Of a stretch of DNA of 64,000 nucleotides, positions 43,714-63,995 are shown in pieces. The stretch lies in NCBI RefSeq assembly GCF_003858635.1, contig NZ_RQJO01000007.1, positions 1,551,941 to 1,615,940 of the forward strand. The letters run 5' to 3'. This DNA is from Larkinella rosea. Its GTDB lineage: Bacteria > Bacteroidota > Bacteroidia > Cytophagales > Spirosomataceae. Position 1 is the first letter of the stretch; every line of letters starts with the position of its first letter. The translations under genes and the position numbers were made by a program. Below the pieces are notes generated by a model. The model saw only the letters and a list, made by a program, of their open reading frames with translations, did no database searches and had not been told where the DNA came from.

Positions 43714-46700
43714 ATGAAGACACTGCCAGGAAACTTTTTTAAGCTCATCGTTCTTTGTTGCTGGCTGATTCTGGGGCATCTCGCAAATGCCCAGACGCCA
43801 TTGGTCAAAGGAACTGTCACTTCGGGAGCCGACAACGCACCTCTCCCGTTTGTAACCGTGGTGGTCAAAGGCACTCAGACCGGGGTCACAACGGATGCCG
43901 CCGGCAAATTCACCATCAATGCCCCCGCCGACAAAACACTGGTTTTTAGTTACATCGGTTACGTCACCCGAGAAGTGACGCCCGGTAACCAAACCGAGCT
44001 GAGTGTCGTGCTGGAACCGGATCAGAAAACCCTGAACGAAGTCGTTGTCGTCGGTTACGGCTCGCAATCCCGCGAAACCGTCACCACTTCGATTTCCAAG
44101 CTGGATAACAAGGTATTGGAAAACATTCCCTACGCCAATGCGGCTTCGGCTTTGCAGGGAACCTTACCGGGCGTTCGAGTGCAGACGACCACCGGCCAGC
44201 CCGGTGCTGCTCCACGGGTCATCATTCGTGGCGGAAATTCGATCAACAATCCGGACGGTTCTTCTCCCTTATACATTATTGATGGCGTCATCCGGGCCGA
44301 CATGAACGACATCAATGCCGACGACATCGAAACCCTGCAAGTGCTGAAAGATGCTTCCTCCACGTCAATTTACGGCGCGCGGGGCGCGAACGGCGTGGTG
44401 ATTATTACAACGAAAAAGGGGAAAGCCGGGAAAATGCAGATTACGTTTCGCCAAAACACCACCTTTTCGCAACTGGCGAAGAAGTATAACATGATGTCGG
44501 CGCGGGATTACGTCTACTTTGGCCGATTGGGCGTATTGAATTCGGCTAAAAAGATTCCGGAACGCATGAGCGTGCTGAGCATTGCCAACAGCTTTGGAAC
44601 CGGTAACGATCTTTCCAACCGCACGTATTCGACGGTGCAATACCTCACGCCCCAGAACCAGTATAAACTCAGCGAAGGTTGGGAAAGCATTGCCGACCCC
44701 GCCGATCCGACCAAAACCCTCATCTTTAAAAATACCGACTGGCAGGATGTGCTGTTTCAAACCGGTATTTCCCAGAACTATTATCTGGGCGCAATGGGCG
44801 GCACCGAAAAAGGCAGTTACAACCTGGGTGTGGGGTATCTGAAATCGCAGGGGATCGCCATCAACACGGATTTCCGGCGATTTACCTTCGATCTGAGCGG
44901 TGATCTGAAGATTCGTGAGAAGCTGAAAGTGAACGCCTTTACCAACTTTACCAATTCGGGTAACAATCAGGTTTTCAACGATAACCAGATTTTCCAGCGG
45001 GCGCTGGCCCTTCCGCCTACGGCTAAACTGTATTTTGAAGACGGAACCATGTCACCCGGTTTTAACCGCTCGATCGGGAACCCGCTGTACCAGTTAAACC
45101 GCTATACCACCGATAACCAATTATACCGACTCACACTTGGTGGCGGTTTGACCTGGAATATCCTGCCGGGGCTGACGTTCGAGCCTTCGACCTCGCTCTA
45201 CGTCATCGAAACCAACAACAACTCCTTCCAGAAATCGTACCTGAACGGCCCCCTGGCGTTCATCGATTCGCGGGTGGCGACGGGCATGCGCCAGACGCAC
45301 TGGCAGCAGCAGGTCGACGCGATTCTGTCGTACAACAAAAGCATCAACCAGCACGGCCTGGATTTCATGCTGGGTACCTCCTATTTTGACCGGAAAATAT
45401 CGATGCTGTCGGCCACGGGCCAGGGCGCTTCGACGGACATTATTCCGACGCTGAACGCTTCGGCTACGGCGGTTGCTGTCAGCAGCTCGATTACCCGCCA
45501 GCGGATCATCAGCTTTTTCGGCCGCGCCAACTACAATTTCGCGCAGAAATACCTGCTTTCGCTGAACGCCCGCTACGACGGGGCTTCCAACCTCGGTTTG
45601 AACAACAAATGGGGTTTGTTTCCCGGAGCTTCCGTGGGCTGGAATATCCATAACGAATCATTCTGGAAAAGCCTCGGTCTGACCGGCGTAGTGAACACCC
45701 TGAAGCTGCGGTCGAGCTACGGTGTCAATGGAAATCTGGGACAACTGGGTGATTTTCAGGCGCAGGGCAACTACAACGTCGGCGCGCGTTACGACGGCAC
45801 GGCGGCCATTCAGAATACGGTTATTCCCAACTCGAACCTCAAGTGGGAACAGACGCAAACCTACGACGTCGGTCTGGACATCGGGCTGTTCAACGGACGC
45901 GTCAACCTGCTCGTCGATTATTTCAACAAACGGACCGACAACCTGCTGACCAACCTCGAACTGCCGCTGGAAACCGGCTTTCAATCCATTCTGACCAACT
46001 ACGGCAGCCTACAGAACCGGGGTTTTGAGGTTGAAATTTCGGGTACGATCATCCGCACAGAGTCCGGTTTCAACTGGAACGCCGGTTTTAACATCGCCAC
46101 CAATCAGCAGAAAATCCTGAAACTCCCGGCCAATGGCAACGAGCGAAACAGGGTCGGCGGAGTGCTGGTGTACGATCCCGAAACCGGCAAAAACGAGTGG
46201 CGTGGTGGTTTGCAGGAAGGCGGACGCATCGGCGATTATTACGCCTACAAGCAGCTCGGCATTTTTGCTACGGACGAAGAAGCCGCTGCCGCACCCATCG
46301 ACAACATTGTGCCGCTGGCCAGCAAAGTCAAGTTCGGGGGCGATGTCAACTGGCTGGACGTCGACGGGAACAAGCAGATCAATTCGTACGACCGGGTGTA
46401 TCTGGGCAATCCGTACCCGACCGTTACCGGCGGTTTTACGACGGCGTTCGCCTACAAGAACTTTACGCTGAATGCCCGGGCCGATTTTACGCTGGGCCAC
46501 ACGATTTACAACTATACGCGGGCCTTGTACAACGGTCAGTTTGTGGGCGAAAACAACGCGTCGAACGACATTCTGCGCTCGTGGCAAAAACCGGGTGACC
46601 AGACCGACATTGCCCGCTATTACTACGCCGATCAGCAGGTGCAAAGCAACCTCTTCCGGCAGAATTCGCTGTATTTTGAGAAAGGCGATTTCCTCGCTAT

Positions 46701-46902
46701 CCGTGAACTTACACTCGGATACAGTTTTCCCGGCGCACTCACCACGAAACTCGGACTGAGCAACCTGCGTCTGAATGTAACCGCTAATAACCTGAAATAT
46801 TTTACGAAATATTCCGGTCTGAACCCCGAAGAAGGTGGGCAGGACAACGGGCGGTATCCGGTTCCCCGCAATTTCATTGTTGGTCTGAATGTGTCATTTT
46901 AA
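43714..46902 (+). CDS. SusC/RagA-family TonB-linked outer-membrane transporter
   Basis: A 1062-residue transporter for glycans or peptides. In order: signal peptide (LIVLCCWLILGHLANAQ), CarboxypepD_reg-like domain (about 28-108), TonB-box-like region (LNEVVVVGYGS), plug domain (about 115-230, with the SusC signature LKDASSTSIYGARGANGVV) and a 22-strand barrel ending in Phe. The plug keeps the usual family order. It is the first gene of the locus, has its own promoter and precedes SusD by 13 bases. Substrate is set by the following enzymes. Confidence 0.95.
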   Translation: MKTLPGNFFKLIVLCCWLILGHLANAQTPLVKGTVTSGADNAPLPFVTVVVKGTQTGVTTDAAGKFTINAPADKTLVFSYIGYVTREVTPGNQTELSVVLEPDQKTLNEVVVVGYGSQSRETVTTSISKLDNKVLENIPYANAASALQGTLPGVRVQTTTGQPGAAPRVIIRGGNSINNPDGSSPLYIIDGVIRADMNDINADDIETLQVLKDASSTSIYGARGANGVVIITTKKGKAGKMQITFRQNTTFSQLAKKYNMMSARDYVYFGRLGVLNSAKKIPERMSVLSIANSFGTGNDLSNRTYSTVQYLTPQNQYKLSEGWESIADPADPTKTLIFKNTDWQDVLFQTGISQNYYLGAMGGTEKGSYNLGVGYLKSQGIAINTDFRRFTFDLSGDLKIREKLKVNAFTNFTNSGNNQVFNDNQIFQRALALPPTAKLYFEDGTMSPGFNRSIGNPLYQLNRYTTDNQLYRLTLGGGLTWNILPGLTFEPSTSLYVIETNNNSFQKSYLNGPLAFIDSRVATGMRQTHWQQQVDAILSYNKSINQHGLDFMLGTSYFDRKISMLSATGQGASTDIIPTLNASATAVAVSSSITRQRIISFFGRANYNFAQKYLLSLNARYDGASNLGLNNKWGLFPGASVGWNIHNESFWKSLGLTGVVNTLKLRSSYGVNGNLGQLGDFQAQGNYNVGARYDGTAAIQNTVIPNSNLKWEQTQTYDVGLDIGLFNGRVNLLVDYFNKRTDNLLTNLELPLETGFQSILTNYGSLQNRGFEVEISGTIIRTESGFNWNAGFNIATNQQKILKLPANGNERNRVGGVLVYDPETGKNEWRGGLQEGGRIGDYYAYKQLGIFATDEEAAAAPIDNIVPLASKVKFGGDVNWLDVDGNKQINSYDRVYLGNPYPTVTGGFTTAFAYKNFTLNARADFTLGHTIYNYTRALYNGQFVGENNASNDILRSWQKPGDQTDIARYYYADQQVQSNLFRQNSLYFEKGDFLAIRELTLGYSFPGALTTKLGLSNLRLNVTANNLKYFTKYSGLNPEEGGQDNGRYPVPRNFIVGLNVSF

Positions 46903-46915
46903 TTAAGGAACGATC

Positions 46916-48388
46916 ATGAAAAATAACCTTATTGCCTTGATATTCATCTCTTTGCTGTGTTCCTGTGATAAAGAACTGGATGTAAAACCGGATAGCCAGA
47001 TCACGGCGGCTTCGTTCTGGACCACGCAGGAAGATGTGACCGGCGCCCGCAGCGGGATGTATGCCCGTTTCCGGACTTTCACGGATTTCAACCTGTATTA
47101 CCTCGGCGAATCCCGCAGCGAAATCATGGGAACCGGGATTCTGAATGCCGATTTCCGGATTCCGTATTTCCAGAACCGTCTGAACAAAATTACCGCTCCG
47201 GGCCCTGACTGGGGCACCATTTACACGGTCATTCACGACATTAACCTGATTCTGAAATACGCACCGGGCATCAAGTTCACGTCGGAAAGCACGAAGAATA
47301 CCATCCTGGCCGAAGCCTACACGATGCGGGCCTTTCTGTATTTCGTACTGGTACGCACCTGGGGCGGAACGCCGTTGCTGCTGGACCCCACGGAGTCGTT
47401 CGATCCGGCCACGATTTACAAGCCGCGGGCCAGCGAAGATGAAATGTTTAAACTGATCACGGACGATCTGGCGAAAGCGCTGGAGCTTTTCCCGGTCAAC
47501 ACCTATCCCACCCGGCGGGGGGCGTGGTCGAAACCGGCGGCCAACGCCCTGAAAGGCGATGTCTATTTATGGATTGCCAAGCGCCGAAACGGTGGTGAAA
47601 GTGCATTGAATACCGCGCTGGCGGCTTTGCAGGAAGTGCAGAAAACCGATGTAGGCCTGCTGCCTAATTTTGCGGATGTGTTCAGCTACGCCAACAAAGG
47701 CAACAAGGAAATTGTGTTTGCGGTGCGGTATCAGGATTTGGAAGCGGTCAACAACTACAGCGGGGATATGTACATCCGCGACAGCGATCTGCCGCCGGGA
47801 ACCGACGCCGAAACGCTGAAGAAAATCGGTCTCGGGGGTGGAATGAACTGGTGGGCGCCTTCGGAAACGATGCGGAAGCAATTTACGGCCGACGACAAAC
47901 GCAAGGACAAATCGTTCGTGGAAATTTACGGCAAAAACGCGCAGGGCAACCCGACTTTTTACACCTCGATCATGACCAAGTTTAGCGGTTTTATCGACGC
48001 CAACGGCCGTCGGTTTCTGGACGACATCATCATTTACCGCTACGCCGACATTCTGCTGATGATTGCTGAAGCCAAAAATGCGCTCGGTCAGGACCCCTCG
48101 GCCGAAATCAACCTGGTGCGGCAACGGGCGTACGGCGATCAGTTTGAAAAACACAAGTTCGTGTCATCGTCAAAAACCGTCAACGACGACGAAATTCTCC
48201 GGGAACGGCTGTTCGAACTCGCTTTTGAAGGAAAACGGTGGTGGGATCTGGTCCGCTTCAACAAAGCCTTCGACCTGGTTCCGTCGCTCGCCGACCGCAA
48301 AGGTCAAACCAACCTGCTGCTCTTCCCGCTTTCCGAAACCGTGATGAGCCGCAACTCCAAACTCGTCCAGAATCCGGGATACGAATAG
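46916..48388 (+). CDS. SusD/RagB-family surface glycan-binding lipoprotein
   Basis: A 490-residue partner of SusC. A lipobox (LCSC, Cys17) anchors it in the outer membrane. SusD N-terminal and C-terminal regions are recognisable (AYTMRAFLYFVLVRTWGG; ADILLMIAEAKNALG; RERLFELAFEGKRWWDLVRF, trimmed), and the TPR-like helical frame is normal. It starts 13 bases after susC. It lids the transporter and binds the ligand at the surface. Confidence 0.94.
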   Translation: MKNNLIALIFISLLCSCDKELDVKPDSQITAASFWTTQEDVTGARSGMYARFRTFTDFNLYYLGESRSEIMGTGILNADFRIPYFQNRLNKITAPGPDWGTIYTVIHDINLILKYAPGIKFTSESTKNTILAEAYTMRAFLYFVLVRTWGGTPLLLDPTESFDPATIYKPRASEDEMFKLITDDLAKALELFPVNTYPTRRGAWSKPAANALKGDVYLWIAKRRNGGESALNTALAALQEVQKTDVGLLPNFADVFSYANKGNKEIVFAVRYQDLEAVNNYSGDMYIRDSDLPPGTDAETLKKIGLGGGMNWWAPSETMRKQFTADDKRKDKSFVEIYGKNAQGNPTFYTSIMTKFSGFIDANGRRFLDDIIIYRYADILLMIAEAKNALGQDPSAEINLVRQRAYGDQFEKHKFVSSSKTVNDDEILRERLFELAFEGKRWWDLVRFNKAFDLVPSLADRKGQTNLLLFPLSETVMSRNSKLVQNPGYE

Positions 48389-48389
48389 C

Positions 48390-48534
48390 GGTTTACGGTT
48401 TTCAGTATTCGGTTTTCGGTGGGCCGCCGGAGCGGTTCCCCGCTGTGGCTGACACCTTCGATATTCGCTATTCAATATTCATTATTCGATATTTATTGAA
48501 TGCGTCAGCTACCGAATACTGAAAACCGTAAACC
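48390..48534. repeat. Nested 145-base palindrome after susD
   Basis: The outer arms (48390-48413 and 48511-48534) are a perfect 24-bp inverted repeat. A second pair GCTGAC/GTCAGC (48448-48453, 48504-48509) and AT-rich ATTCAATA-type arms nest inside. The right outer arm recurs almost unchanged at 63136-63158. It is the usual position for lowering expression of enzymes below that of susCD. Confidence 0.75.
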
Positions 48535-48580: not shown

Positions 48581-49492
48581 ATGAATCATTCCCCAATCGG
48601 TGGCCTGTGGCCAGCCCTATTCACACCAGTCGATCAAAACGGAAATCCTGATTTTCAACAACTTGAAAAAATTGTCGAATTATGCATTAAACAAAAACTG
48701 GACGGGCTGTATATTTTAGGCTCCACCGGGCAGGGGTTTTTGTTCTCCGAACAACAACGGATGGCGATTACCCAAACCGTAATGGAAACCGTCAACGGAG
48801 CCATGCCGGTGATCGCGCAGGTGGGCGCGCTGAACACGAACGAATCGATCCGGCTGGCGCAGTCGGCGCAGGAAATGGGCGTTTACGGTATTTCGACCGT
48901 CGGGCCGATTTATTACCAGTCCGGCGTCCGGAATGCCCTGGCACACTACTCCGCCATCGGGTCATCCATCGACATTCCGTTTTTTCCGTACCACATTGGT
49001 AATCACAGTGTTTTTGGTGGCGACGCGCGGAAGTACATCGAGCAGATTCTCGCGCTGCCCAACATTGCGGGCATGAAACTCACGACGCAGAACCTGTACG
49101 AAATCAGCCTGATTCACATTCTGTCGCAGGACAAAATGGTGCTGTTCAGCGGGGCCGACGAATTGTTTTGCCAGGCCACGCTCTGCGGAACCGTAGGTGC
49201 CATCGGGAGTTTTTTCAACCTCTGGGGCGAGGAGTGCAAGTTTGTGCGCGAAGAGTTTATCAAAGGCAATTTTGAGCTGGGCAACCGGTTTATGCTTACG
49301 TTCCAGGAGATTATCTTCGACGTGTTGCCCAACATCTGGTCGTTCTTCCACCAGGCCATGCTGCTCAAACACGACATCAACATCGGTGCGCCCAACCCGC
49401 CCCTGGGGCTTGGCAATTCGCCCTGGAAAGAGAAAGACATCGTGGACATCTGCGACCGGATTTCTGCCGTGAGCGGCTTGGTCAATAATTAA
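48581..49492 (+). CDS. N-acetylneuraminate lyase / dihydrodipicolinate synthase family aldolase
   Basis: A 303-residue class I aldolase that forms a Schiff base with pyruvate-type substrates. GSTGQG at 47-52, Tyr137 in PYHIG and Lys166 in GMKLTT match the catalytic set of the family. Next to sialidase-fold genes it is most simply read as a sialic-acid lyase releasing pyruvate and an amino sugar, but the binding-loop residues differ (GSTGQ rather than GSTGE) and nanE and nanK are absent in the window, so the acid split may not be Neu5Ac. Confidence 0.8.
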   Translation: MNHSPIGGLWPALFTPVDQNGNPDFQQLEKIVELCIKQKLDGLYILGSTGQGFLFSEQQRMAITQTVMETVNGAMPVIAQVGALNTNESIRLAQSAQEMGVYGISTVGPIYYQSGVRNALAHYSAIGSSIDIPFFPYHIGNHSVFGGDARKYIEQILALPNIAGMKLTTQNLYEISLIHILSQDKMVLFSGADELFCQATLCGTVGAIGSFFNLWGEECKFVREEFIKGNFELGNRFMLTFQEIIFDVLPNIWSFFHQAMLLKHDINIGAPNPPLGLGNSPWKEKDIVDICDRISAVSGLVNN

Positions 49493-49581: not shown

Positions 49582-51348
49582 ATGACGATTCGATTTCTAC
49601 CCAAACACCTGACCGCAACGCTCCGGAATTCCCGATTCGTCGGAATCTCCGTGTATTGTCTCGGTGTTTTTTGGGGAATCGAAAGTTACGCGCAGCGCCC
49701 GGATGAGTCGTCGTTCGGGATGCGATTGCGCGGGGTCCCGCAACGGGCGGCCGATGTTTTTGAACCGGTTTTCGTAACAGCCGCCCCCACGAATGAAGCC
49801 ACGCTCATCCGTACAAAAAACGGCGGATTAACGATTTTTTACGTCAACCGCCCCGGCGAAGCCGACAAACTCCTGTCGATTTCGTCACCGGATGGTTTGC
49901 ACTGGTCCGAGCCGGTGAAGGAACTGGACCTGCCGGGCCAGGCGTATTATGCCAACCGTGTCCTGGAAGATCGGAATGGCGGGCTGAATTGCATTTTTCA
50001 CCTGTGGAGCACGGGCGATAACGGCTACCGGGGTAAGCACCTGGATGTCTGGTATTGCCGGAAAACCGCTGCGGAAAAACCGTGGAGTTCGCCCCGAAAA
50101 ATTTACGACGGCTACGTGGGCTCGATGCGGAGTTTTATTCAACTGACCACCGGCGAATTGCTGATTTCATTCGCCAGAGCGGTTCCGCAACGTCTGGAGA
50201 AACCCGCAGACGGTCAGAAGGATTACGGCTGGAACGACATTCTGGTACTGCTTTCGGACGATAACGGGCAAAACTGGAAACCGTCGGCGGATCAACTGCA
50301 AGTCGAAATCGACGGAAGCATGCCGGTTCGTTACGGCGGGATTGAACCCAACGTACTTGAGCTGGCCGACGGACGGTTGTGGATGCTGATTCGCACGAAT
50401 AAAGGGCAATTGTACGAATCGTTTTCGACGGATCGCGGCAGGAGCTGGCAATCGGCTCAGCCCTCCCGCTTCATCTCTTCGGATTCACCGGCGGAACTGC
50501 TCCGGCTTTCGGATAATCGTATCGTACTGTTTTACAATGGCAACCAGCGCTGGGACAATCCCCGCAGCTATGCCGCCGGAGGTCGCGAAGTGCTGCACGC
50601 GGCCGTAAGCCGGGATGAGGGAAAAACCTGGAAAGGATTTCGGGAAGTATTGACCACGCCATCGGCCCAACAAAAAGCCACCAGCGACCGGGGCACCGCG
50701 TATGCGTCGGCAGCGGAAACCATCGCCGGGAAAGTGGCCTTCGTGGCCGGGCAGGGTGAAGCCAAAGCGATGGTGCTGTTTGATCCCGACTGGCTCGAAC
50801 AAGCCGAAGTCCGGGACGATTTTTCGGCCGGTCTGGTGCAATGGACGTTGTATGACGCCGACAGCCTGATTCGGTTAACGCCAGATCCCAAAACCGGACA
50901 GAATGCCTTGCTGGTGACTGCGGGTAGCGGAAAAACGAATGCGGCAGCCCTCTGGAATTTCCCGGCGACCGCCCAGGGAACGTTGAAAGTTGAGCTGGAA
51001 CTACCGCTGGATTCGCCAGTGGTTTCGCTGATGCTAACCGATCATTTCTCGGTTTCGACGGACTCAAAAGCCGCTGATCACGCGGTAGTTGGGTTTGTGT
51101 TTAAACCCGCCAACCGCCCGGGAAAACCGCCGAAAAACCGCCGGACGGTTTTGGAAATCCGGTGGAATTCGGCGGAAAACAAAGCCAATTTGTACGTCAA
51201 CGGCCGGCTGGCAGCCCAATCCGACTTCCATCGTCGACCCGGGTGTGGCCTTAATTACCTGCGGATCGGGCTCGCTGAGCATTCCGTCCCTCCGGCCACC
51301 TTTATGATTCGTTCAGTAGCACTTTCCGCCCAAAAGAACAATAACTAG
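49582..51348 (+). CDS. Exported BNR (sialidase-fold) hydrolase with C-terminal beta-sandwich
   Basis: A 588-residue exported protein with a long signal region (SVYCLGVFWGIESYAQ). Six-bladed-propeller Asp boxes are visible near residues 101-108, 225-232 (SDDNGQNW), 282-289 (STDRGRSW) and 343-350 (SRDEGKTW). Arg77 (LIRTKNGG) and Arg271 (LIRTNKG), and Glu255 are candidates for sialidase-type carboxylate binding and catalysis, but a FRIP motif is not evident. The C-terminal 180 residues look like a concanavalin-type sandwich. Likely releases an acidic sugar from a glycan; true sialidase activity is not proven by sequence. Confidence 0.8.
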   Translation: MTIRFLPKHLTATLRNSRFVGISVYCLGVFWGIESYAQRPDESSFGMRLRGVPQRAADVFEPVFVTAAPTNEATLIRTKNGGLTIFYVNRPGEADKLLSISSPDGLHWSEPVKELDLPGQAYYANRVLEDRNGGLNCIFHLWSTGDNGYRGKHLDVWYCRKTAAEKPWSSPRKIYDGYVGSMRSFIQLTTGELLISFARAVPQRLEKPADGQKDYGWNDILVLLSDDNGQNWKPSADQLQVEIDGSMPVRYGGIEPNVLELADGRLWMLIRTNKGQLYESFSTDRGRSWQSAQPSRFISSDSPAELLRLSDNRIVLFYNGNQRWDNPRSYAAGGREVLHAAVSRDEGKTWKGFREVLTTPSAQQKATSDRGTAYASAAETIAGKVAFVAGQGEAKAMVLFDPDWLEQAEVRDDFSAGLVQWTLYDADSLIRLTPDPKTGQNALLVTAGSGKTNAAALWNFPATAQGTLKVELELPLDSPVVSLMLTDHFSVSTDSKAADHAVVGFVFKPANRPGKPPKNRRTVLEIRWNSAENKANLYVNGRLAAQSDFHRRPGCGLNYLRIGLAEHSVPPATFMIRSVALSAQKNNN

Positions 51349-54378: not shown

Positions 54379-54436
54379 ACGATTGACCATCGACGATTGT
54401 TAAACGTCAATGGTCGATGGTCTATCGTCTATCGTC
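54371..54436. repeat. Word-type palindrome between the two paralogous BNR genes
   Basis: Two 29-base arms (54371-54399 and 54408-54436) match at 27 positions and are built from GACGATAGAC/GACCATCGAC words. The left arm covers the stop codon of the fusion gene. Confidence 0.75.
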
Positions 54437-54458
54437 CATACACAACTTCCTGATCACC

Positions 54459-55562: not shown

Positions 55563-55573
55563 ACCGGGTTTCC

Positions 55574-56359
55574 ATGAAAAACGATTCCGCGCTTTCCCGC
55601 CGATCATTTATCAAAACCGCCGGGATCGGCCTGGCTTTTCCGGCGGTTTTGACACCGGTTTTTCCCGAAGCGTCGGCGACGGGTCAGGACGTTCCGGATC
55701 TCGGAAAAGTCAAGGAACTGCTGGCCCGAAAAGACCCGAACGTCTGGCTTTTTACCGGCGACAGCATCACGCACGGGGCCAAGCATACGCACGGTTCGCG
55801 CAGCTATCCGGAGATTTTTTCGGAACGGATTCGCTGGGAATTGAAGCGGGTGCGCGACCTGGTGATCAATACGGGCATCAGCGGCAACGCCACCAGCAAC
55901 ATTCTGAGTGATTTCGAATGGCGGGTTGCCCAGTTCAAACCGGCGGTGGTTTCGCTGATGATCGGCACTAACGATTGCGCCCGAAAAGAAATAACGACCG
56001 CGGTTTTTGAACAAAACCTGACCGATCTTGTCCGGAAAATCCGGGCGTTGAGTGCCATTCCGATTCTGCATACGCCCAATCCGATCATCATCGAAAAAGC
56101 GCCGGAACGGAAGACATTGCCGGATTATATCCCGGTGATCCGACGCGTGACCGAAACGCAAAACGTGCTACTTGTTGATAATTACCAGCATTGGCAGACT
56201 ACCACCGCCATCAACGTCAACCGCGAATGGCTGAACGATCCGCTGCATCCGGGCGCGCGCGGGCACCAGGAAATTGCCCGCTTGCTGTTCAAAACACTAT
56301 CCATTTTTGACCCGCAGGAGCCCACCTGTGGGGGCGCTTATTATGAAGGAGAACACTGA
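55574..56359 (+). CDS. Exported SGNH/GDSL hydrolase with Tat-type signal
   Basis: A 261-residue esterase candidate. The N-terminus has a Tat-like motif (SRRSFIK) followed by a hydrophobic stretch. Catalytic blocks are TGDSIT, NTGISGN, GTNDC and DPLHPGARGH, so the Ser, Gly, Asn and Asp/His set is complete. ATG 55574 is 11 bases after the BNR gene; the longer open frame upstream overlaps that gene out of frame. Substrate is probably an acetylated carbohydrate (inference from context). Confidence 0.85.
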   Translation: MKNDSALSRRSFIKTAGIGLAFPAVLTPVFPEASATGQDVPDLGKVKELLARKDPNVWLFTGDSITHGAKHTHGSRSYPEIFSERIRWELKRVRDLVINTGISGNATSNILSDFEWRVAQFKPAVVSLMIGTNDCARKEITTAVFEQNLTDLVRKIRALSAIPILHTPNPIIIEKAPERKTLPDYIPVIRRVTETQNVLLVDNYQHWQTTTAINVNREWLNDPLHPGARGHQEIARLLFKTLSIFDPQEPTCGGAYYEGEH

Positions 56360-57284
56360 AAACCGCTTCTATAAACGGATCGACGGCGTTTTGCCAGGGT
56401 CGCACGTGTTGCTTACGGCGGGTGTCCACGGCGACGAATACGAACCGATGCTGGCGGCCAGGGCGCTGATGGACGAGCTGGAAGGAAAGCTGGCAGCAGG
56501 CCGGGTTACGATTGTGTCGGTTGTGAATGAAAGTGCGTACGAACGGGCGAACCGCTGCGGTGCCGACGGGCTCGATCTGGCCCGAATTTGTCCGGGAAAT
56601 CCGGATGGTTCGGTATCGGAGAAAACCGCTTCTTGGATTAGCTCGCTGATTCAAGAAGCTGATTATTACGTCGACATGCACACCGGCGGTTTAGCGTATG
56701 ACATTTTTCCGCTGGCGGGTTACATGCTGCATCCGTCGCCGGATGTACTTGAAAAGCAGCAACAAATGGCGATTGCCTATAATTTGCCCATCGTCTGGGG
56801 AACCGATCACCGACCCAATGGCCGAACGCTTTCGGTGGCCAGAGATGCGAATATTCCAGCTATTTACCTGGAATACGGCGGAGGAACCGGCCTGCGCGAA
56901 CCGGTTGTAGCTGCGTACAAAGACGGTTTTATCAATCTCCTGAAACACCTGAACCTGATTGCCGAACCCGTTCAAACCGCCCCGATTGCCGAGCGGTTTT
57001 GGGTGGAGGATCACCGACCGGATAGTGGCTATCTGCAAGCCAAAATGCCTTCGCCCGCCGATGGCGTTTTTGTGGCCGCCGTCAAACCGGGTGAGGTGGT
57101 CCGCCCCGGACAGGTTTGGGGCCAAATCCTCGATCCGGTTTCGGGAATCCGTACGGAAGTAACGACGGAATTGGGTGGCCTGGCATTTCTGTTGCGAACC
57201 AGTGTAAAAGTAAAAGAAGGCGATGCGTTGGGCGGTATTCTGCCCATCGACAAACCCGGTAAACGGATTAGTAAGAATGGATAA
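56343..57284 (+). CDS. Succinylglutamate desuccinylase/aspartoacylase-family hydrolase
   Basis: A 313-residue zinc amidohydrolase of the M14-like AstE/AspA family. The zinc ligands are His and Glu in GVHGDEYEP and the His in YVDMHTGG; RICPGNPDGS is the family middle motif. It starts inside the end of the SGNH gene (17-base overlap) and has no signal peptide, so it works in the cytoplasm. In this context it may remove an N-acyl group from an imported sugar or amino acid derivative. Confidence 0.82.
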   Translation: MKENTENRFYKRIDGVLPGSHVLLTAGVHGDEYEPMLAARALMDELEGKLAAGRVTIVSVVNESAYERANRCGADGLDLARICPGNPDGSVSEKTASWISSLIQEADYYVDMHTGGLAYDIFPLAGYMLHPSPDVLEKQQQMAIAYNLPIVWGTDHRPNGRTLSVARDANIPAIYLEYGGGTGLREPVVAAYKDGFINLLKHLNLIAEPVQTAPIAERFWVEDHRPDSGYLQAKMPSPADGVFVAAVKPGEVVRPGQVWGQILDPVSGIRTEVTTELGGLAFLLRTSVKVKEGDALGGILPIDKPGKRISKNG

Positions 57285-58089
57285 AAGAGTGGTCATCATC
57301 ACCGGCGCAGCGGGCGGAATCGGGCGGGCAACGGCCGAAAAATTCGCCACTGAGAACTTCCGGCTGGTGCTTTCTGATATTGCCGAAGAACCGCTCAAAA
57401 CGTTAGCGGCTGATTTGAAAAACCGCTACAGTGCTGACTGTTTGCCGGTTGTCGGCGATCTGGCGCAGTTGCCGGATCTGGAACAGCTCGTCGCCCAGAC
57501 GATTCAGCAATTTGGGCGGATCGATGTGCTGGTGAATAATGCGGCCTGGCGAACGCTGGAAACACTGCGAACGATGGAAATCGAAACCTGGGAAAAAACG
57601 CTGCGGGTGTGCCTGACAGCCCCGGTTTTTCTGACCAAATGGGTGGCGCAGCACATGGAGAAACAGGCCAATGGGGGCGTCATAATCAACATTTCCAGCG
57701 TCATGGCGGCCCGGCCTTCGGGCTGCGGCCCGGCGTATATCGCGGCCAAAGGCGCCCTCGAAAGCCTGACAGCGGAACTGGCGATTACGTACGGGCGCAA
57801 AGGAATACGGGTCGTTGGCGTCGCACCGGGGTACATCGATACCGAACTCAGCAATGATTACGTAGACCCAGAAGGCGAAAACATCAGCGCTAAAATAACC
57901 GCTGAACTCACCGGTTTTATCCCGATGGCGCGGGGCGGAAAGTCCCGTGAAGTGGCCGAAGCAATCTTCTGGCTGTGTTCTCCGCAGGCGTCCTACATCA
58001 GCGGTACCACCCTCACCATCGACGGTGGTTTGAAACCCAATTTCAATTCGTATTCCATCAAGAAGTTACAATTTCCCAACGAGTTTTGA
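57277..58089 (+). CDS. Short-chain dehydrogenase/reductase
   Basis: A 270-residue Rossmann oxidoreductase. The cofactor loop is TGAAGGIG, the NNAA motif follows, and the catalytic Ser/Tyr/Lys set is ISSVMA with YIAAK. The Asp after strand 2 (VLSDIAEE) favours NAD(H). ATG 57277 overlaps the preceding gene by eight bases. It probably oxidises or reduces a hydroxyl of the catabolic intermediate. Confidence 0.9.
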   Translation: MDKRVVIITGAAGGIGRATAEKFATENFRLVLSDIAEEPLKTLAADLKNRYSADCLPVVGDLAQLPDLEQLVAQTIQQFGRIDVLVNNAAWRTLETLRTMEIETWEKTLRVCLTAPVFLTKWVAQHMEKQANGGVIINISSVMAARPSGCGPAYIAAKGALESLTAELAITYGRKGIRVVGVAPGYIDTELSNDYVDPEGENISAKITAELTGFIPMARGGKSREVAEAIFWLCSPQASYISGTTLTIDGGLKPNFNSYSIKKLQFPNEF

Positions 58090-59171
58090 ACACGATCTGG
58101 AAATACCAAAACCAATTGCCGGCGGTTTCGCCCCACCACCGCGTATTGCTGGGCGAAGGCCAGACCCCGCTCGTCCGTTCGCGCTCGATTGGAGCTTCGC
58201 TGGGAATTGATAATCTGTATTTTAAGCTGGAAAACCTGAATCCGAGCGGTTCGTACAAAGACCGGTTTGCAGCCGTTCTGGTTAGTGAAATGAATGCCAA
58301 AGGCCAGAAAATCTGCATTGCCACCTCGAGCGGAAACACCGGCGCGGCTCTGTCGGCCTACTGCGCAGCCGCCGGAATGACCTGTATTCTGGTCGTGGTG
58401 GACGGGGCACCGATACCGAAAATCCGGCAAATGCAGTTGTACGGCGCTCGTATCTTTATGGTAAGCGGTTTTGGCAAAGATCCCGCCATTACGACGGCGG
58501 TTTTTGATGAACTCGAAAAACTGTGTCGTTCCTACCAAATACCGTTGCCAATCAGCGCGTACCGCTATTGTCCGTCCGCCATGCAGGGCGTTCAGACGAT
58601 TTCCGCCGAAATTCTGGAAACGCTGAATGGTCAGGTCGATCATATTTTTTCACCTGCGGGTGGCGGAGGACTGACGCTGGCAGTTACCCTGGGCGTTCTG
58701 GCCGAAAACCCGGCAACCCACCGAACCAAAGTCAACTGTGTGCAACCTGAAGGGAACGATACGATGGCCAGTTCGTTGCGGAATAACGGAACAGCGAAAG
58801 CGGTTTCTGCCTCAACCACCACCGTCAGCGGTTTGCAGGTTCCCGGCGTTCTGGACGGTGACCGGGTTATTGAAAACGGGCGAAAAACGGGCGGTAATGG
58901 CTATATTGTCACGGACGAGCGGGTTTTTGCGTGGCAAAAAGCGCTGGCCCAGCAGGAAGGTATTTTCAGTGAACCCGCCGGAGCCGTGGCATTGGCCGGG
59001 CTGGAAGACGCCGTTCGACGCAACGAAGTGAACCGAAAGGAAACCGTCGTTTGTCTGGTAACCGGCAGCGGTTTTAAGGACATGGCTTCGGTTGAAACGA
59101 ATTTTGGCCTGCCGCCGGTGCAAACCGTCGACGTTGGCCAGACCATTGCGCTGATTCAGCCGTTTTTGTGA
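58086..59171 (+). CDS. PLP-dependent threonine synthase/dehydratase-like enzyme
   Basis: A 361-residue fold-type II PLP enzyme. The Schiff-base Lys is in NPSGSYKDR, SSGNTGAAL binds the substrate carboxylate, and GGGG (in SPAGGGGLT) binds the cofactor phosphate. It resembles threonine synthase but could equally be a hydroxy- or diamino-acid ammonia-lyase. The start is taken as TTG 58086, overlapping the SDR stop by four bases (a TTGA junction); no ATG fits. Ammonia-lyases produce reactive enamines, which fits the RidA gene further on. Confidence 0.8.
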   Translation: MNTIWKYQNQLPAVSPHHRVLLGEGQTPLVRSRSIGASLGIDNLYFKLENLNPSGSYKDRFAAVLVSEMNAKGQKICIATSSGNTGAALSAYCAAAGMTCILVVVDGAPIPKIRQMQLYGARIFMVSGFGKDPAITTAVFDELEKLCRSYQIPLPISAYRYCPSAMQGVQTISAEILETLNGQVDHIFSPAGGGGLTLAVTLGVLAENPATHRTKVNCVQPEGNDTMASSLRNNGTAKAVSASTTTVSGLQVPGVLDGDRVIENGRKTGGNGYIVTDERVFAWQKALAQQEGIFSEPAGAVALAGLEDAVRRNEVNRKETVVCLVTGSGFKDMASVETNFGLPPVQTVDVGQTIALIQPFL

Positions 59172-59313: not shown

Positions 59314-60591
59314 ATGATTTCACCGACACTCCAAAAACCTTCGTTCTATCCGTGGCTGGTCGTGGGGTTGCTCTGCGTCGTCGGTTGTCTGAATTACCTC
59401 GACCGGATGATGATCACGACCATGCGGAGTTCTATTCTCGCGGAAATCCCGATGACCGACGGCCAGTTCGGCTTGCTGACGTCGGTTTTTCTCTGGGTAT
59501 ATGGTTTGCTGAGTCCGCTGGCGGGTTTTCTGGCTGATCGGTTCAACCGCAGCAGGGTCATTGTGGGCAGCTTATTTGTCTGGTCGATCGTGACCTGGTG
59601 TACCGCACAAGCGACCACTTTTGAAGAATTGCTGTTGACGCGGGCGCTGATGGGCATCAGTGAAGCCTGTTACATTCCGGCTGCGCTCGCGCTGATTGTC
59701 GATTACCACCGCGGCACCACCCGGTCGCTGGCGACGGGCGTTCACATGGGCGGCATCATGATTGGGCAAAGTCTCGGTTTTGTGGGTGGCTGGCTGGCCG
59801 AAAGCCGAAGCTGGAGCTACGCATTCGGTGTATTTGGTGTGGTTGGAATTGGCTATGCGGTGCTCCTGGCCCTCGTCCTTCGCGACCCGGTTGCTGTTGC
59901 CTCAGGTCCGGTAATTGGCGTAAAACCAGATTCCAACATCAGCTTCAAGGCCGCCATCGCTGACCTGTTTAGCCGTAAAGCGTACATCGTAGCCCTTACA
60001 CTCTGGGGCTTGGGCGGCATTGTGAGCTGGCTGGTTGTGGGCTGGTTACCAACCTATTACAAAGAACATTTTAATTTGTCGCAAACCGTCGCCGGGTTGT
60101 ATGCAACCGGTTATTTTCATACGGCCTCGCTGGTGGGCGTGCTGACGGGCGGTTTTCTGGCCGACCGCTGGAGCCGGACCAATCCGCGCGGACGCATTCT
60201 GGTCCCATTTATCGGGCTGATTATCGCGGCTCCGGGTATTTTTATCGCAAGCAGCACCTCCGTTCTGTCCGTTGCCATTGTCTGCTTCATGATTTATGCT
60301 TTCACGCGGACCTTCCTCGACGCCAACATGATGCCGATACTGTGCCTGATCGCCGATCAGCGCTACCGCGCCACGGGTTATGGTATTCTGAATCTGGTAG
60401 CCTGCATCATCGGTGGAATAGGCCTGTACGCAGGTGGTATTCTGCGCGATGCCGACATCGATCTCAGCCGGATTTTCCAGTTTGCCGCCTTGACGATGCT
60501 GATTTCCGCCGGTTTGCTCTACACCCTGAAACCGAAGCCCGAAGACATTCCCGAAAGTCCTGAAATCCAGAATAAACCCGTTTTAAAATGA
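59314..60591 (+). CDS. MFS transporter, probable organic/sugar-acid carrier
   Basis: A 425-residue inner-membrane carrier with 12 predicted helices and the MFS signature GFLADRFNRSR between TM2 and TM3. The N-terminal NYLDRMMITTM pattern is that of the anion:cation symporter group, which often carries sugar acids such as sialate, galactarate or hexuronates. It would bring the released acid into the cytoplasm. It overlaps the RraA gene by four bases. Confidence 0.88.
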   Translation: MISPTLQKPSFYPWLVVGLLCVVGCLNYLDRMMITTMRSSILAEIPMTDGQFGLLTSVFLWVYGLLSPLAGFLADRFNRSRVIVGSLFVWSIVTWCTAQATTFEELLLTRALMGISEACYIPAALALIVDYHRGTTRSLATGVHMGGIMIGQSLGFVGGWLAESRSWSYAFGVFGVVGIGYAVLLALVLRDPVAVASGPVIGVKPDSNISFKAAIADLFSRKAYIVALTLWGLGGIVSWLVVGWLPTYYKEHFNLSQTVAGLYATGYFHTASLVGVLTGGFLADRWSRTNPRGRILVPFIGLIIAAPGIFIASSTSVLSVAIVCFMIYAFTRTFLDANMMPILCLIADQRYRATGYGILNLVACIIGGIGLYAGGILRDADIDLSRIFQFAALTMLISAGLLYTLKPKPEDIPESPEIQNKPVLK

Positions 60592-61232
60592 ATTTTGACG
60601 AATTAAAAGACAAGCTATACGTGGCCGTTTTGTCGGACGTCCTCGATCAGTTAGGCTACACCCACCAGGCCACCCGCATTCCGTTTCACGCGTATACCGG
60701 GATTCCCAAATTGCTGGGCCGCTGTAAAACCACGCTCTGGGCGGACATGTACGACGTCGATAAAAATCCGTACGAACTGGAACTGCAGGCCGTCGATTCC
60801 TGCCAGCCGAATGATGTGCTGATTTGTGCTGCGGGCGATTCCCGCCGTTCGGGCATCTGGGGCGAATTGCTGTCGACAGCGGCCCGCAACAGTGGCTGTG
60901 TGGGCGTCATCGTTCACGGGGGTGTTCGGGATATCGACAAAATGCGGGCGATGGAATTTCCGGTTTTTGCCACCTCCAAAAATCCGTACGACAGTCAAAA
61001 CCGCCAGCGCGTGGTCGATCTGGATGTGACGGTGGAAATCGACGGCGTCAAATTCCGACCCGGCGATCTGGTCATGGCCGATGAGGACGGGATTGTCGTG
61101 ATTCCAAAAGAAATTGAAGATCAGGTCATTGTGGCTGCCCTTCAGAAAGTGGACGCCGAAAACGGCACGCGCGACGCGATTAAGAACGGCATGAAAGCCT
61201 GGGAAGCTTATCAAAAATTTGGTGTATTATGA
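60588..61232 (+). CDS. RraA-family aldolase/decarboxylase-like protein
   Basis: A 214-residue protein of the RraA / 4-hydroxy-4-methyl-2-oxoglutarate aldolase family. The region WGELLSTAARNSGCVG and the GGVRDID loop keep the Arg-Asp pair that in characterised aldolases binds the 2-oxoacid and metal. In a catabolic operon a role as 2-oxoacid aldolase or decarboxylase is more likely than RNase E control, since it lies between a carrier and RidA with four-base overlaps on both sides. Confidence 0.85.
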   Translation: MNFDELKDKLYVAVLSDVLDQLGYTHQATRIPFHAYTGIPKLLGRCKTTLWADMYDVDKNPYELELQAVDSCQPNDVLICAAGDSRRSGIWGELLSTAARNSGCVGVIVHGGVRDIDKMRAMEFPVFATSKNPYDSQNRQRVVDLDVTVEIDGVKFRPGDLVMADEDGIVVIPKEIEDQVIVAALQKVDAENGTRDAIKNGMKAWEAYQKFGVL

Positions 61233-61612
61233 ACGAGAAAAAAGTGGTCAGCGGGCTGAACATTCCAAAAAGTCACCTGCCTTTTTCACCCGGTATTATT
61301 TCCGGCGATTACCTGTTTGTGTCGGGCCAGGCTTCGGTGGACGATAGTGGTCAAATTGTCGATGACACCTTCGAAGGCGAATGCCGACGGTCGTTTGAAA
61401 ACCTGAAACGGATTGTGGAAGCCGCCGGAGCGAGTCTGGACGATGCGGTTCAGGTGCGGAATTACGTCGGCAAACAGGAATACCTGGCCGAATTCAACGC
61501 CATTTACCGGGAGTATTTCAACGCGCCGTTCCCGGCCCGAACCACGCTCATCGGCTGCCTCGGCGACCTGCTGAAGTTCGAAGTCGATGCGGTGTTTTTG
61601 GTCAGAAAGTAA
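61229..61612 (+). CDS. RidA-family enamine/imine deaminase
   Basis: A 127-residue trimeric protein of the YjgF/YER057c/UK114 family. The conserved Arg is present in FPARTTL and Glu in KFEVDAVF, so deaminase activity is expected. It hydrolyses 2-aminoacrylate-type enamines made by PLP dehydratases, and such an enzyme is encoded three genes upstream. Overlaps rraA by four bases. Confidence 0.9.
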   Translation: MNEKKVVSGLNIPKSHLPFSPGIISGDYLFVSGQASVDDSGQIVDDTFEGECRRSFENLKRIVEAAGASLDDAVQVRNYVGKQEYLAEFNAIYREYFNAPFPARTTLIGCLGDLLKFEVDAVFLVRK

Positions 61613-61621
61613 ATTTCAGTC

Positions 61622-63091
61622 ATGCCAAAACGAATTGCCCTGCTGGGTATTTACCACGAAACCAACACCTTCATTGAAACGCCCACGACGCTGGATGATT
61701 TCAAAAATGGCTACTGGCTGGCGGGTGACGCTATCCGAACTGAATACGAGGGCGCTCACCACGAAATCAGTGGCGTCATCGAAGTAATTGATAACCAGCC
61801 TGATCTGGAACTGGTGCCGGTTCTATACGTGTCGGCGACACCGGGCGGGATGATCGAGAAAGGTGCCTATGAATTCATATTGGCCGAATTAATGACGGCC
61901 ATCGATGCGGTTTTGCCCCTGGACGGCTGCATTGTGGTGCCGCACGGGGCCGGTGTTGCCAATTCATATCCCGACATGGACGGCCACTGGCTGGGTTTGT
62001 TACGCGAAAAACTCGGCAGTGAAATTCCGATCACGGGGACATTGGACCCGCACGCCAACGTCAGCCCGGCGATGGCGTCGGCCACGGATGCGCTGGTTGC
62101 CTATGCCACCAATCCGCATGTCGATCAACGGGTTACGGGCCGGAAAGCTGCCGAACTGCTGGTGGAAACCTTGCGTGGTAATCGGCGTCCCGTGCAGCAT
62201 CTGGTGCAACTGCCGATGGCGATCAGCATCGAGCAGCAATACACGTCGCAGGAGCCTTGCCGAAGCCTGTACGAGTTCGTAGACCAGACAAAAGAGGAGA
62301 ACCGCTTGCTTTCGGCGAGCGTGCTGCTCGGTTTTCCGTATGCGGATGTGCCGGAAATGGGTTCGGCCTTTATTCTGGTTGGCGATGAGAAACAAAACCC
62401 GGATGTCCGTTCGCTGTTGCAGTCGATCGGGCAGCAATTAGCCGACCATATCCTCCACCGAAAAGAAGATTTTAACGGCAGAAAAACCGGTATCTCCGAG
62501 GTTCTTCCTTCACTGGCAACCTTACCCAAACCGATCCTGATGCTCGACATGGGCGACAACGTGGGCGGAGGTGCGCCCGGAAATAGTACACACTTACTTG
62601 ATTACCTGGAAGATAAAAGCTCATCATTGGTTTTCTGTTGCCTCTATGATCCAATGGCGGTTTTGGAAGCGGGAAAATACAAGGTCGGTGACTCGTTTCG
62701 ATTGGCAATGGGTGAAAACGGAAAGAAATTGGAAACGGACGTGGTACTCGACCAATTGTCGGACGGAAAGTTTACCGAATCGACCCCTAAACACGGCGGT
62801 TTTGTGAATTACGACATGGGCGAAACGGCGATTGTAAAAACCGCCAATGGCAATACCATCATGCTGACGACCCGGCGAACCCCACCGTACAGTCTCCGGC
62901 AGATGACGGCTTTCGGACTAGAACCGGAATCGTTTGCGATGATCATCGCCAAAGGTGTCAACGCCCCGATTGCGGCCTACGCCCCGGTTTGTCCGACCAT
63001 TGTGCAGGTCGATACGCCCGGCGTCACCCAGGCCGATATGACGCTGTTTGCGTACAAAAACCGCCGAAAGCCATTTTTCCCATTTGAATAG
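61622..63091 (+). CDS. M81-family metallohydrolase (MlrC-like)
   Basis: A 489-residue cytoplasmic protein of the MlrC/DUF1485 family, named for linearised microcystin hydrolysis but usually an amide hydrolase of unknown substrate. HETNTF near residue 15 and DPHANVSP (about 142-149) are metal-site motifs, PHGAG is also kept, and the C-terminal domain contains DMGDNVGGGAPGN. It starts nine bases after ridA. With the aspartoacylase-like enzyme it may open amide bonds in the imported compound. Confidence 0.87.
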   Translation: MPKRIALLGIYHETNTFIETPTTLDDFKNGYWLAGDAIRTEYEGAHHEISGVIEVIDNQPDLELVPVLYVSATPGGMIEKGAYEFILAELMTAIDAVLPLDGCIVVPHGAGVANSYPDMDGHWLGLLREKLGSEIPITGTLDPHANVSPAMASATDALVAYATNPHVDQRVTGRKAAELLVETLRGNRRPVQHLVQLPMAISIEQQYTSQEPCRSLYEFVDQTKEENRLLSASVLLGFPYADVPEMGSAFILVGDEKQNPDVRSLLQSIGQQLADHILHRKEDFNGRKTGISEVLPSLATLPKPILMLDMGDNVGGGAPGNSTHLLDYLEDKSSSLVFCCLYDPMAVLEAGKYKVGDSFRLAMGENGKKLETDVVLDQLSDGKFTESTPKHGGFVNYDMGETAIVKTANGNTIMLTTRRTPPYSLRQMTAFGLEPESFAMIIAKGVNAPIAAYAPVCPTIVQVDTPGVTQADMTLFAYKNRRKPFFPFE

Positions 63092-63093
63092 TA

Positions 63094-63151
63094 GTTTTCA
63101 ATTTGCGGTATTCGGTTTACACCGGGCTGGCGTAAACCGAATACTGAAAAC
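63094..63151. repeat. Palindrome between M81 and SMP-30 genes
   Basis: GTATTCGGTTTAC (63108-63120) pairs with GTAAACCGAATAC (63132-63144), and GTTTTCA (63094-63100) with TGAAAAC (63145-63151) across a seven-base bulge. The right part repeats the outer arm of the palindrome at 48511-48534. Confidence 0.7.
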
Positions 63152-63161
63152 CGTAACCCAA

Positions 63162-63995
63162 ATGACACATTCCATCAAAAAACTCCTTGACCTGCCCTAT
63201 TACACCGAGGGCCCGGCGGTGGATCAGGAAGGTAATCTTTTCTTTTCCACCCTAACAGGGGGAGCCATTGGCCGATTGGATCGCCAAGGCAACTATTCCG
63301 TTTGGGCAAAAACCGCTTGCCCCAATGGACAGGTCATTCTGCCGGATGGGACGCATTGGGTATGTGATCCAAAGCAGGCAGCGGTTAGCGTGTTCAATGC
63401 AAAGGGGGAATTCCAGGAGACGGTCGTTCAGGGAGTTTGCGCGAATAAAGTAGTGGAGTCGCCAAACGATCTGATCATTGATTCGCACCAAAATCTGTAT
63501 TTCACGGAATCGATCCGAACGGATGGAAAAGTCTTTTTTGTGGGTTCCGACGGCCATGAACGGGTCGTTGCCGACGGCATCGATTACGCAAACGGTATTG
63601 CCTTATCCCGCGACGAGCGGTTTTTGTACGTGGCCGAAAGTTTTAAAAACCGGGTGCTGGTGATCGAACTCGCTGAGCCCGGAATTCCGAAAACGAAGCC
63701 GAAGGTCTTTGCCAATTTACCCGTTCATCGCTCCGGTAAGCCAACCGACAATTTGCCGGATGGGCTGGCGGTTGATCATGCCGGGAATGTCTGGGTGGCA
63801 CATTACGGGATGCAGGCCATTCAGGTGTTGACGGCGCGGGGCGACTGGCAGTTTTCCATCGACACGACCTTACCCTTGACGAGCAATCTCTGTTTTCTGG
63901 AAGACACGGCGCAACGCCAGACTTTGCTGGTCACCGGTGGCTCCGGCGAACCGGGTCCGGGTGGAGTGGTTCAGGTGACGGTTTTCCCAAAATAA
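63162..63995 (+). CDS. SMP-30/gluconolactonase-family lactonase
   Basis: A 277-residue six-bladed propeller enzyme without signal peptide. The metal ligands are all present in order: Glu in YTEGPAVD, Asn in SPNDLI, Asn in DYANGIAL and Asp in NLPDGLAVD. It hydrolyses sugar lactones, so it likely opens a lactone made by the SDR or a related dehydrogenase in this pathway. ATG 63162 follows the palindrome; the longer reading from 63048 crosses the M81 stop and hairpin. Last gene visible, ending five bases from the window end. Confidence 0.88.
   Translation: MTHSIKKLLDLPYYTEGPAVDQEGNLFFSTLTGGAIGRLDRQGNYSVWAKTACPNGQVILPDGTHWVCDPKQAAVSVFNAKGEFQETVVQGVCANKVVESPNDLIIDSHQNLYFTESIRTDGKVFFVGSDGHERVVADGIDYANGIALSRDERFLYVAESFKNRVLVIELAEPGIPKTKPKVFANLPVHRSGKPTDNLPDGLAVDHAGNVWVAHYGMQAIQVLTARGDWQFSIDTTLPLTSNLCFLEDTAQRQTLLVTGGSGEPGPGGVVQVTVFPK

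Follow-up and report, generated by a model that had tools for sequence, protein, structure and literature searches.

Described pathways and the Larkinella rosea locus

In Bacteroides, sialic acids are catabolized through the nanLET genes. Catabolism of the Escherichia coli type, encoded by nanATEK, is defined by NanA, NanK and NanE (PMC10570557, sections available). A cluster of 20 genes conserved in Larkinella and its relatives shares with both systems sialidase-fold enzymes, a NanM-like mutarotase, an MFS carrier, a lyase-like aldolase and a GntR/FCD regulator nearest NanR. It lies in a 64,000-nucleotide stretch of the 8.17 Mb Larkinella rosea genome (contig C10:1551941-1615940, hereafter the window) and continues beyond the window's edge. 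Unlike nanATEK and nanLET, it is not accompanied by any nanE that could be found and holds neither an epimerase nor a sugar kinase; a dehydrogenase, a lactonase, an N-acyl-amino-acid deacylase, a pyridoxal phosphate (PLP) enzyme and a pyruvate-aldolase-like protein are encoded instead. The cluster looks like a previously undescribed way of using sialic-acid-type sugars, unlike the textbook phosphate route. From gene content and order, conservation, family membership and the conservation of active-site positions we infer, with somewhat better than even confidence, that it takes up sialic-acid-type (nonulosonic) sugars and breaks them down along an oxidative, non-phosphorylated, amino-acid-like route, whose reactions, compartments and substrate are all proposals.

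Non-phosphorylative Entner-Doudoroff-type pathways run through a sugar 1-dehydrogenase, a lactonase, a 2-keto-3-deoxy acid and a pyruvate aldolase. The same types of step are proposed here, and a glycerate kinase gene is found in 3 of the 80 loci sampled below; in contrast, a deacylase and a PLP enzyme would replace the sugar-acid dehydratase. Oxidised chitin is used by the ong pathway of Pseudoalteromonas prydzensis, in which GlcNAc1A (C1-oxidised N-acetylglucosamine) is made by a lytic polysaccharide monooxygenase, OngB belongs to the D-aminoacylase family, OngC is a putative PLP-dependent D-amino-acid deaminase, growth requires the RidA protein OngD, and the product 2-keto-3-deoxygluconate is then phosphorylated (PMC9537276, available part). 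As in the ong pathway, an N-acetyl-hexosaminate would here lose its acetyl group and then, through a PLP enzyme acting with RidA, its amino group, giving 2-keto-3-deoxygluconate. However, the locus encodes AstE_AspA_cat and threonine-synthase-fold PALP proteins and none of the OngB or OngC type, the folds of which are presumably different. It also lacks a kinase, carries RraA, and entry would be via a sugar dehydrogenase and lactonase.

Conservation and distribution

With the PLP enzyme as query against 59 genomes (L. rosea and 58 relatives), close counterparts were found in L. rosea itself and in eight of the relatives (62 to 87% identity, at least 464 bits), the next best score being 137 bits. 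The block is collinear in six of the eight congeners searched (G002 to G007). There is no BNR1 match at the G006 locus, G005 has a second copy of BNR2 and no MlrC match, and the L082 locus is also without an MlrC match. The remaining two congeners, G001 and G008, are without a close PLP-enzyme counterpart. A reduced core is present in G024, from another genus, and comprises the regulator, SusCD, lyase, BNR4, AstE, SDR, PALP, MFS, RraA, RidA, MlrC, SMP-30 and NanM; BNR4 is the BNR gene retained, and MlrC is the sole member without a step in the proposed pathway. In G030, an 8.7 kb contig spans SGNH/BNR to PALP. Five control regions of about 20 kb around PALP paralogues contained no other panel gene at E 1e-5. 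As gene order is kept in six of eight congeners and the paralogue regions are empty of panel genes, the grouping is more than chance. The PLP family is rare, being found in 2 of 296 Bacteroidota genomes (L. rosea included) at E 1e-70. This catabolic locus is genuine, coherent and conserved.

A wider sample consisted of the best 80 of at least 563 confirmed relatives from a genome-contig scan with the PLP enzyme, 38 of them Bacteroidota and 42 Planctomycetota or Verrucomicrobiota, as judged from record titles. Gene presence was scored by tblastn (E 1e-5), and full-flank counts refer to 44 loci (29 Bacteroidota, 15 others), with the 36 shorter loci left out. AstE and SDR are each present in 70 of all 80 loci, in 44/44 and 42/44 of those with full flanks, respectively, and both lie within 2.5 kb of PALP in 57 of the 65 loci with enough flank. 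Among the 29 Bacteroidota full-flank loci, AstE, SDR, RidA and SMP-30 are universal, MlrC and NanM are found in 28, a lyase match of at least 40% and any BNR gene in 27, MFS in 19, RraA in 16 and AKR in 15. The 15 non-Bacteroidota loci all carry AstE, followed by SDR (13), MlrC (6), BNR (5), RraA and MFS (4 each), NanM (3) and RidA (2), with no lyase match of at least 40% and no SMP-30. The SDR-AstE-PALP triad is therefore the constant nucleus, which in Bacteroidota comes with genes of the sialate type.

The earlier note had divided the locus into an outer, sialidase-bearing half and an inner half, and had treated independent occurrence of the two in most relatives as speaking against a joint pathway. 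BNR, lyase, AstE and SDR occur together in 25 of the 29 full-flank Bacteroidota loci, so that the halves are one system there; the lyase gene is even located within the inner half in several Bacteroidota loci. Outside Bacteroidota the triad is also found without sialidase-fold genes, a BNR match being missing in 10 of the 15 full-flank loci, and it is therefore a portable module. No match to the PLP gene was found in E. coli genomes. In three Planctomycetota/Verrucomicrobiota loci (L090, L135 and L136) the triad stands with a Gfo/Idh oxidoreductase, to which L090 and L135 add an M24 peptidase-like protein, a symporter and another SDR. The clustering of genes at the loci contained spurious reverse-strand frames and one cluster in which NanM was merged with symporters via fusions; only its HpcH/HpaI cluster was counted.

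Sialic-acid-side genes

All of the best 29 distinct Protein Data Bank (PDB) sequences matched by the lyase carry the name (acyl- or N-acetyl-)neuraminate lyase, though many are variants of the same few proteins, and the best NCBIfam model agrees with N-acetylneuraminate lyase, although below its cut-off. Nine active-site positions, equivalent to S47, T48, Y137, K165, T167, G189, D191, E192 and S208 of E. coli NanA, are conserved, in that order, in 35, 34, 35, 35, 35, 35, 35, 34 and 27 of 35 sequences (the window's included); some of the kept positions presumably contact the side chain of N-acetylneuraminic acid (Neu5Ac). The structure model of BNR4 (mean predicted local distance difference test score 89.5) has a six-bladed propeller fold and matches sialidases in Foldseek with a template modelling score of about 0.7, the top match being an uncharacterised Dyadobacter protein (5hx0). 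Its R39, D67, E218, R234, R296 and Y327 (numbered from base 54459) are invariant in 28 aligned sequences and form a candidate Arg triad/Asp/Glu/Tyr set, assigned by eye. A NanM-like mutarotase gene adjoins the SMP-30 gene, and SGNH2 is perhaps a sialate O-acetyl esterase. The sialic-acid-like character that the earlier note had given to the outer half is supported, and the substrate of the locus is probably a nonulosonic acid. The loci of four relatives encode a fusion of a NanM-type Kelch domain with a sodium:solute symporter (L129:15134-17701, L141:16070-17875, L088:16476-18929 and L080:16100-18631; the L080 NanM match is below the Pfam cut-off).

A proposed oxidative pathway

Outside the inner membrane, SGNH esterases would remove acyl groups, sialidase-fold enzymes (at least BNR4) would liberate the acid, SusCD would import material and NanM would set the anomer, with the MFS carrier as the predicted inner-membrane sialate importer. 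In the cytosol, the lyase would yield pyruvate and N-acyl-mannosamine (N-acetylmannosamine, ManNAc). The SDR is a candidate N-acyl-D-mannosamine 1-dehydrogenase, oxidising C1, and SMP-30 a candidate N-acetylmannosamino-lactonase that would open the lactone to N-acyl-D-mannosaminate. AstE would then remove the acyl group as an N-acetyl-D-mannosaminate deacetylase, and the PLP enzyme would act as a D-mannosaminate ammonia-lyase, with loss of water and ammonia to give 2-keto-3-deoxygluconate and with RidA assisting imine hydrolysis. RraA may be the 2-keto-3-deoxygluconate aldolase, yielding pyruvate and glyceraldehyde.

ManNAc oxidised at C1 (2-acetamido-2-deoxy-mannonate) is an N-acyl, beta-hydroxy alpha-amino acid of the 2S (L) configuration, its glucosamine epimer being 2R (D). 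The "amino-acid" genes therefore make sense for Neu5Ac itself, and the occurrence of D-type enzymes in the ong pathway (2R acid) and of L-type kinds here matches the expected 2R/2S counterpart relation. An exotic glycan carrying an amino-acid group, as the earlier note had suggested, is not needed and was rejected, since the required structure is present in oxidised ManNAc itself; the note's hint of an unusual nonulosonic acid is kept in play by the AKR/SDR2 pair (below). The route that the note had outlined, from a PLP ammonia-lyase through RidA and RraA to a 2-oxoacid and its cleavage, is supported. A description of an oxidative sialate pathway was not found in the open literature (most subscription papers fell outside the search).

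The inner genes have family relationships consistent with these steps. The named relative nearest to AstE is DoeB, the N-acetyl-L-diaminobutyrate deacetylase and thus an N-acetyl-L-amino-acid deacetylase, and the residues that presumably serve as its zinc ligands and catalytic Glu are conserved in 55 or 56 of 56 sequences. For the PLP enzyme, the closest models are threonine synthase and Thr/Ser dehydratase. The best curated model for the SDR is glucose 1-dehydrogenase, below cut-off, and the active-site N, S, Y and K are present in 44/44 sequences. By sequence, the nearest solved relative of RraA is 4-carboxy-4-hydroxy-2-oxoadipate aldolase. An HpcH/HpaI aldolase gene is present in 19 of the 80 loci, of which 17 are without RraA and two have it; that aldolases of two unrelated families share this setting is consistent with replacement of an aldolase step. 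Six Bacteroidota loci (L081, L092, L114, L119, L120 and L131), all without an RraA match, carry a class III aminotransferase (69-100% identity to the L120 copy), which may substitute for the step; another enzyme of this class is annotated beside NeuB in L146. The glycerate kinase genes stand at the locus edge (L120:19189-20340, L131:19190-20332 and L091:15-1070; Pfam on the L120 copy) and their products would use oxidised glyceraldehyde.

Flavobacterium is the source of an N-acylmannosamine 1-dehydrogenase (EC 1.1.1.233). This enzyme serves in the assay of ManNAc (PMC9127241, available part), and no physiological pathway for it was found in the open literature. PMC4557933 was rejected as a source on ManNAc dehydrogenase, as the part available concerns UDP-ManNAc dehydrogenase.

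NanE (PF04131) had no match over cut-off in 10 genomes, eight of them with the locus. In 33 further genomes, six of them non-Bacteroidota carrying the core only, just four matches exceeded the cut-off of 27; they scored 27-28 bits and lay in reading frames some 500 residues long. The statement of the earlier note that nanE is lacking thus holds in that no convincing nanE was found across 41 genomes (8 + 33) with the locus or its core. By Pfam, nanK, nagA and nagB are not in the locus; the rest of the genome was not searched for them. An AGE-type epimerase is likewise absent from the locus, and an AGE/RokA route was rejected for it because the AGE genes that were found lie elsewhere.

A number of observations weigh against the proposed pathway. 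The absence of nanE is weak alone and nearly expected, because a NanE match of at least 100 bits occurs in only 16 of 296 Bacteroidota genomes, which would predict about two in the sample. AGE-family epimerases are found in 10/10 genomes tested, with two in L. rosea (149 and 125 bits) outside the locus. G001, a congener without the locus, has a Bacteroides-like nan cluster with a RIP-type sialidase, an AGE epimerase and an MFS-like carrier, identified by eye (L061:7042-10677), so that the genus has either two routes to the same sugar, or a new locus for a different sugar. G005 and G024 carry an AGE gene of 270-275 bits in addition to the locus, hinting at a different substrate. GH33 sialidases have an (F/Y)RIP motif; BNR4 lacks it, with NPRNSEG at that place, and no sialidase of the RIP type turned up when the 80 loci were scanned with a narrow motif. 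For the lyase, regulator, AstE, PALP, MFS and NanM, even the best NCBIfam match falls below the cut-off of its model. The SDR family is too versatile for a reaction to be assigned, any SDR could reach the SDR counts at tblastn E 1e-5, and the likeness of this SDR to EC 1.1.1.233 is one of proposed reaction. MlrC has no step. RraA has no match in 13 of the 29 full-flank Bacteroidota loci, and both RraA and HpcH/HpaI are missing from 17 of the 44 full-flank loci, so that the final cleavage may occur elsewhere or differently.

Sialate use is usually scored by nanA, nanK and nanE, and a nanE-free route, if true, would mean that surveys miss degraders in soil and water. One survey reports that predicted sialidases outnumber nanE about 21-fold in non-human environments (available sections of PMC10570557). 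The pathway, if true, would also offer a possible physiological role for enzymes of the ManNAc dehydrogenase type, and testable functions for the widespread RraA-like, M81, AstE-like and threonine-synthase-like families in one pathway.

The AKR/SDR2 pair and alternative explanations

AKR and SDR2 are neighbours in 14/14 loci with an AKR match of at least 35%. As AKR is matched in only 15 of the 29 full-flank Bacteroidota loci and not in the G024 core, the pair is accessory. Homologues of both stand side by side in the same order in a plasmid-borne pseudaminic acid cluster of Priestia, and in five further plasmid regions an AKR and/or SDR2 homologue is found near neuB/pseudaminic acid synthase, acylneuraminate cytidylyltransferase or sialyltransferase genes. 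These six regions are not a random sample, having been taken from the five highest rows in two 12-row lists (for SDR2, from among the matches listed, at least 5000 records). A phage collection searched with SDR2 and AKR yielded nothing specific, the matches being generic in 101 records and weak in one further case. EpaA (a cytidylyltransferase plus AKR) and EpaB (a 262-aa SDR) turn pseudaminic acid (Pse) into 8-epi-Pse (PMC12053666, part available). The Larkinella pair is similar in that an AKR and an SDR of about 262 residues are encoded together, and differs in its catabolic setting and in that no cytidylyltransferase is in the locus; the likeness is one of family. Before some nonulosonic acids are cleaved, the pair probably alters their side chain at C8.

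Since the AKR/SDR2 homologues lie within nonulosonate-biosynthesis clusters, a nonulosonic acid modified at C8, and not Neu5Ac, may be the substrate. The oxidative logic would then be the same, and a nonulosonic acid from microbial glycans, C8-epimeric or with some other side-chain modification, would be converted by AKR/SDR2 into a form acceptable to the lyase. We regard this as possible though improbable: the constant pairing, the plasmid regions and the EpaA/EpaB precedent favour it, as do the BNR4 motif, unlike that of classical sialidases, and the high-scoring AGE genes of G005 and G024, but the patchy distribution of AKR, the selection of the six regions from list tops and the unspecific phage searches do not. 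In addition, diamino acids such as legionaminic acid (Leg) or Pse would leave a C4 amine that RraA presumably could not cleave directly. Neu5Ac as the main natural substrate falls just short of an even chance. A joint reading is more doubtful still. In it, the Bacteroidota oxidative pathway would treat the amino sugar of nonulosonates as an amino acid, the version with AKR/SDR2 would be a biosynthetic side-chain epimerase module reused for catabolism, making food of C8-epimeric bacterial sialic-acid analogues, and in Planctomycetota and Verrucomicrobiota other 2S amino sugars would be handled by the SDR-AstE-PALP triad.

The two halves could also be separate modules sharing an operon, the outer one a conventional sialate route (lyase, an AGE-type epimerase elsewhere, ROK kinase) and the inner one for amino acids or peptides. 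AGE-family genes are indeed in the genome, the triad occurs without sialidase-fold genes in most of the full-flank non-Bacteroidota loci, and MlrC and RidA are typical of amino-acid and peptide metabolism. Against this, both halves are kept together in 25 of 29 Bacteroidota loci, several with the lyase inside the inner half, and no BNR match was found in 14-15 kb around the two L. rosea AGE genes, which makes such an arrangement unlikely. We give equally little credence to a system in which the BNR enzymes and aldolase act on another 2-keto-3-deoxy acid, of the 3-deoxy-D-manno-octulosonic acid (KDO), 2-keto-3-deoxynononic acid (KDN) or 3-deoxy-D-lyxo-heptulosaric acid (DHA) type, while the deacylase/PLP branch handles another N-acyl amino sugar of the same glycan, such as N-acetylmannosaminuronic acid (ManNAcA) or N-acetyl-L-fucosamine (L-FucNAc). 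Some GH33 enzymes hydrolyse acids of these types, ManNAc is not the sole 2S amino sugar, and the lyase reaches 40% in none of the 15 non-Bacteroidota loci; however, NanM, a NanR-like regulator and lyase positions for the Neu5Ac side chain, taken in their usual roles, are present together.

Gene layout and neighbouring genes

All genes named in the earlier note were recovered by Pfam across 42821-63995; additional to its list is an MFS transporter gene, which separates those of the PLP enzyme and RraA (Table 1). The note described most of the inner genes as overlapping by 4-17 bases. With likely starts taken from open reading frames, this is so for five of the eight junctions from SGNH2 to SMP-30 (SGNH2-AstE 17 bases, AstE-SDR 8, and SDR-PALP, MFS-RraA and RraA-RidA 4 each), and the other three are gaps (PALP-MFS 142 bases, RidA-MlrC 9, MlrC-SMP-30 70). 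The PALP start was placed at a TTG codon because stops lie directly upstream in relatives. Rfam and tRNA scans gave no matches.

Table 1. Genes of the locus in Larkinella rosea, in window positions unless a contig is given.
Gene or product	Position	Strand	Basis
GntR/FCD regulator, divergent from operon	42821..43564	-	Pfam; best NCBIfam model NanR, 71 bits, cut-off 260
SusC-type TonB-dependent outer-membrane transporter	43714..46902	+	Pfam
SusD-type glycan-binding protein	46916..48388	+	Pfam
N-acetylneuraminate-lyase-like aldolase, DHDPS family	48581..49492	+	Pfam, PDB sequence matches, active-site alignment
BNR1, sialidase-fold with C-terminal extension	49582..51348	+	Pfam BNR_2
BNR2, sialidase-fold	51378..52532	+	Pfam BNR_2
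SGNH esterase domain fused to BNR domain	52570..54378	+	Pfam
BNR4, GH33-like sialidase-fold	54417..55562	+	Pfam, structure model, alignment
SGNH2, SGNH esterase, twin-arginine-like N-terminus (by eye)	55556..56359	+	Pfam
AstE/aspartoacylase-type deacylase	56343..57284 (start inferred)	+	Pfam, nearest named relative DoeB
SDR	57277..58089 (start inferred)	+	Pfam; best NCBIfam model glucose 1-dehydrogenase
PALP, threonine-synthase/dehydratase-fold PLP enzyme	58086..59171 (TTG start inferred)	+	Pfam
MFS transporter	59314..60591	+	Pfam; best NCBIfam model D-galactonate transporter, below cut-off
RraA-like protein	60588..61232	+	Pfam
RidA-type enamine/imine deaminase	61229..61612	+	Pfam
M81/MlrC-type metallohydrolase, no assigned step	61622..63091	+	Pfam
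SMP-30/gluconolactonase-like	63162..63995 (start inferred)	+	Pfam
NanM-like mutarotase	L008:1944-3008 (window-equivalent 64003-65067), outside window		
AKR	L008:3114-4052 (window-equivalent 65173-66111), outside window		by eye and weak NCBIfam matches
SDR2	L008:4215-5006 (window-equivalent 66274-67065), outside window		

Beyond SDR2, a sulfatase gene identified by eye (L008:5011-6543, - strand, window-equivalent 67070-68602) is convergent with the operon end; at congener loci it has only 26-30% matches, in G006. Upstream of the regulator, positions 40897-42765 encode a cyclic-nucleotide-binding and patatin-like protein (by eye) that is not part of the locus.

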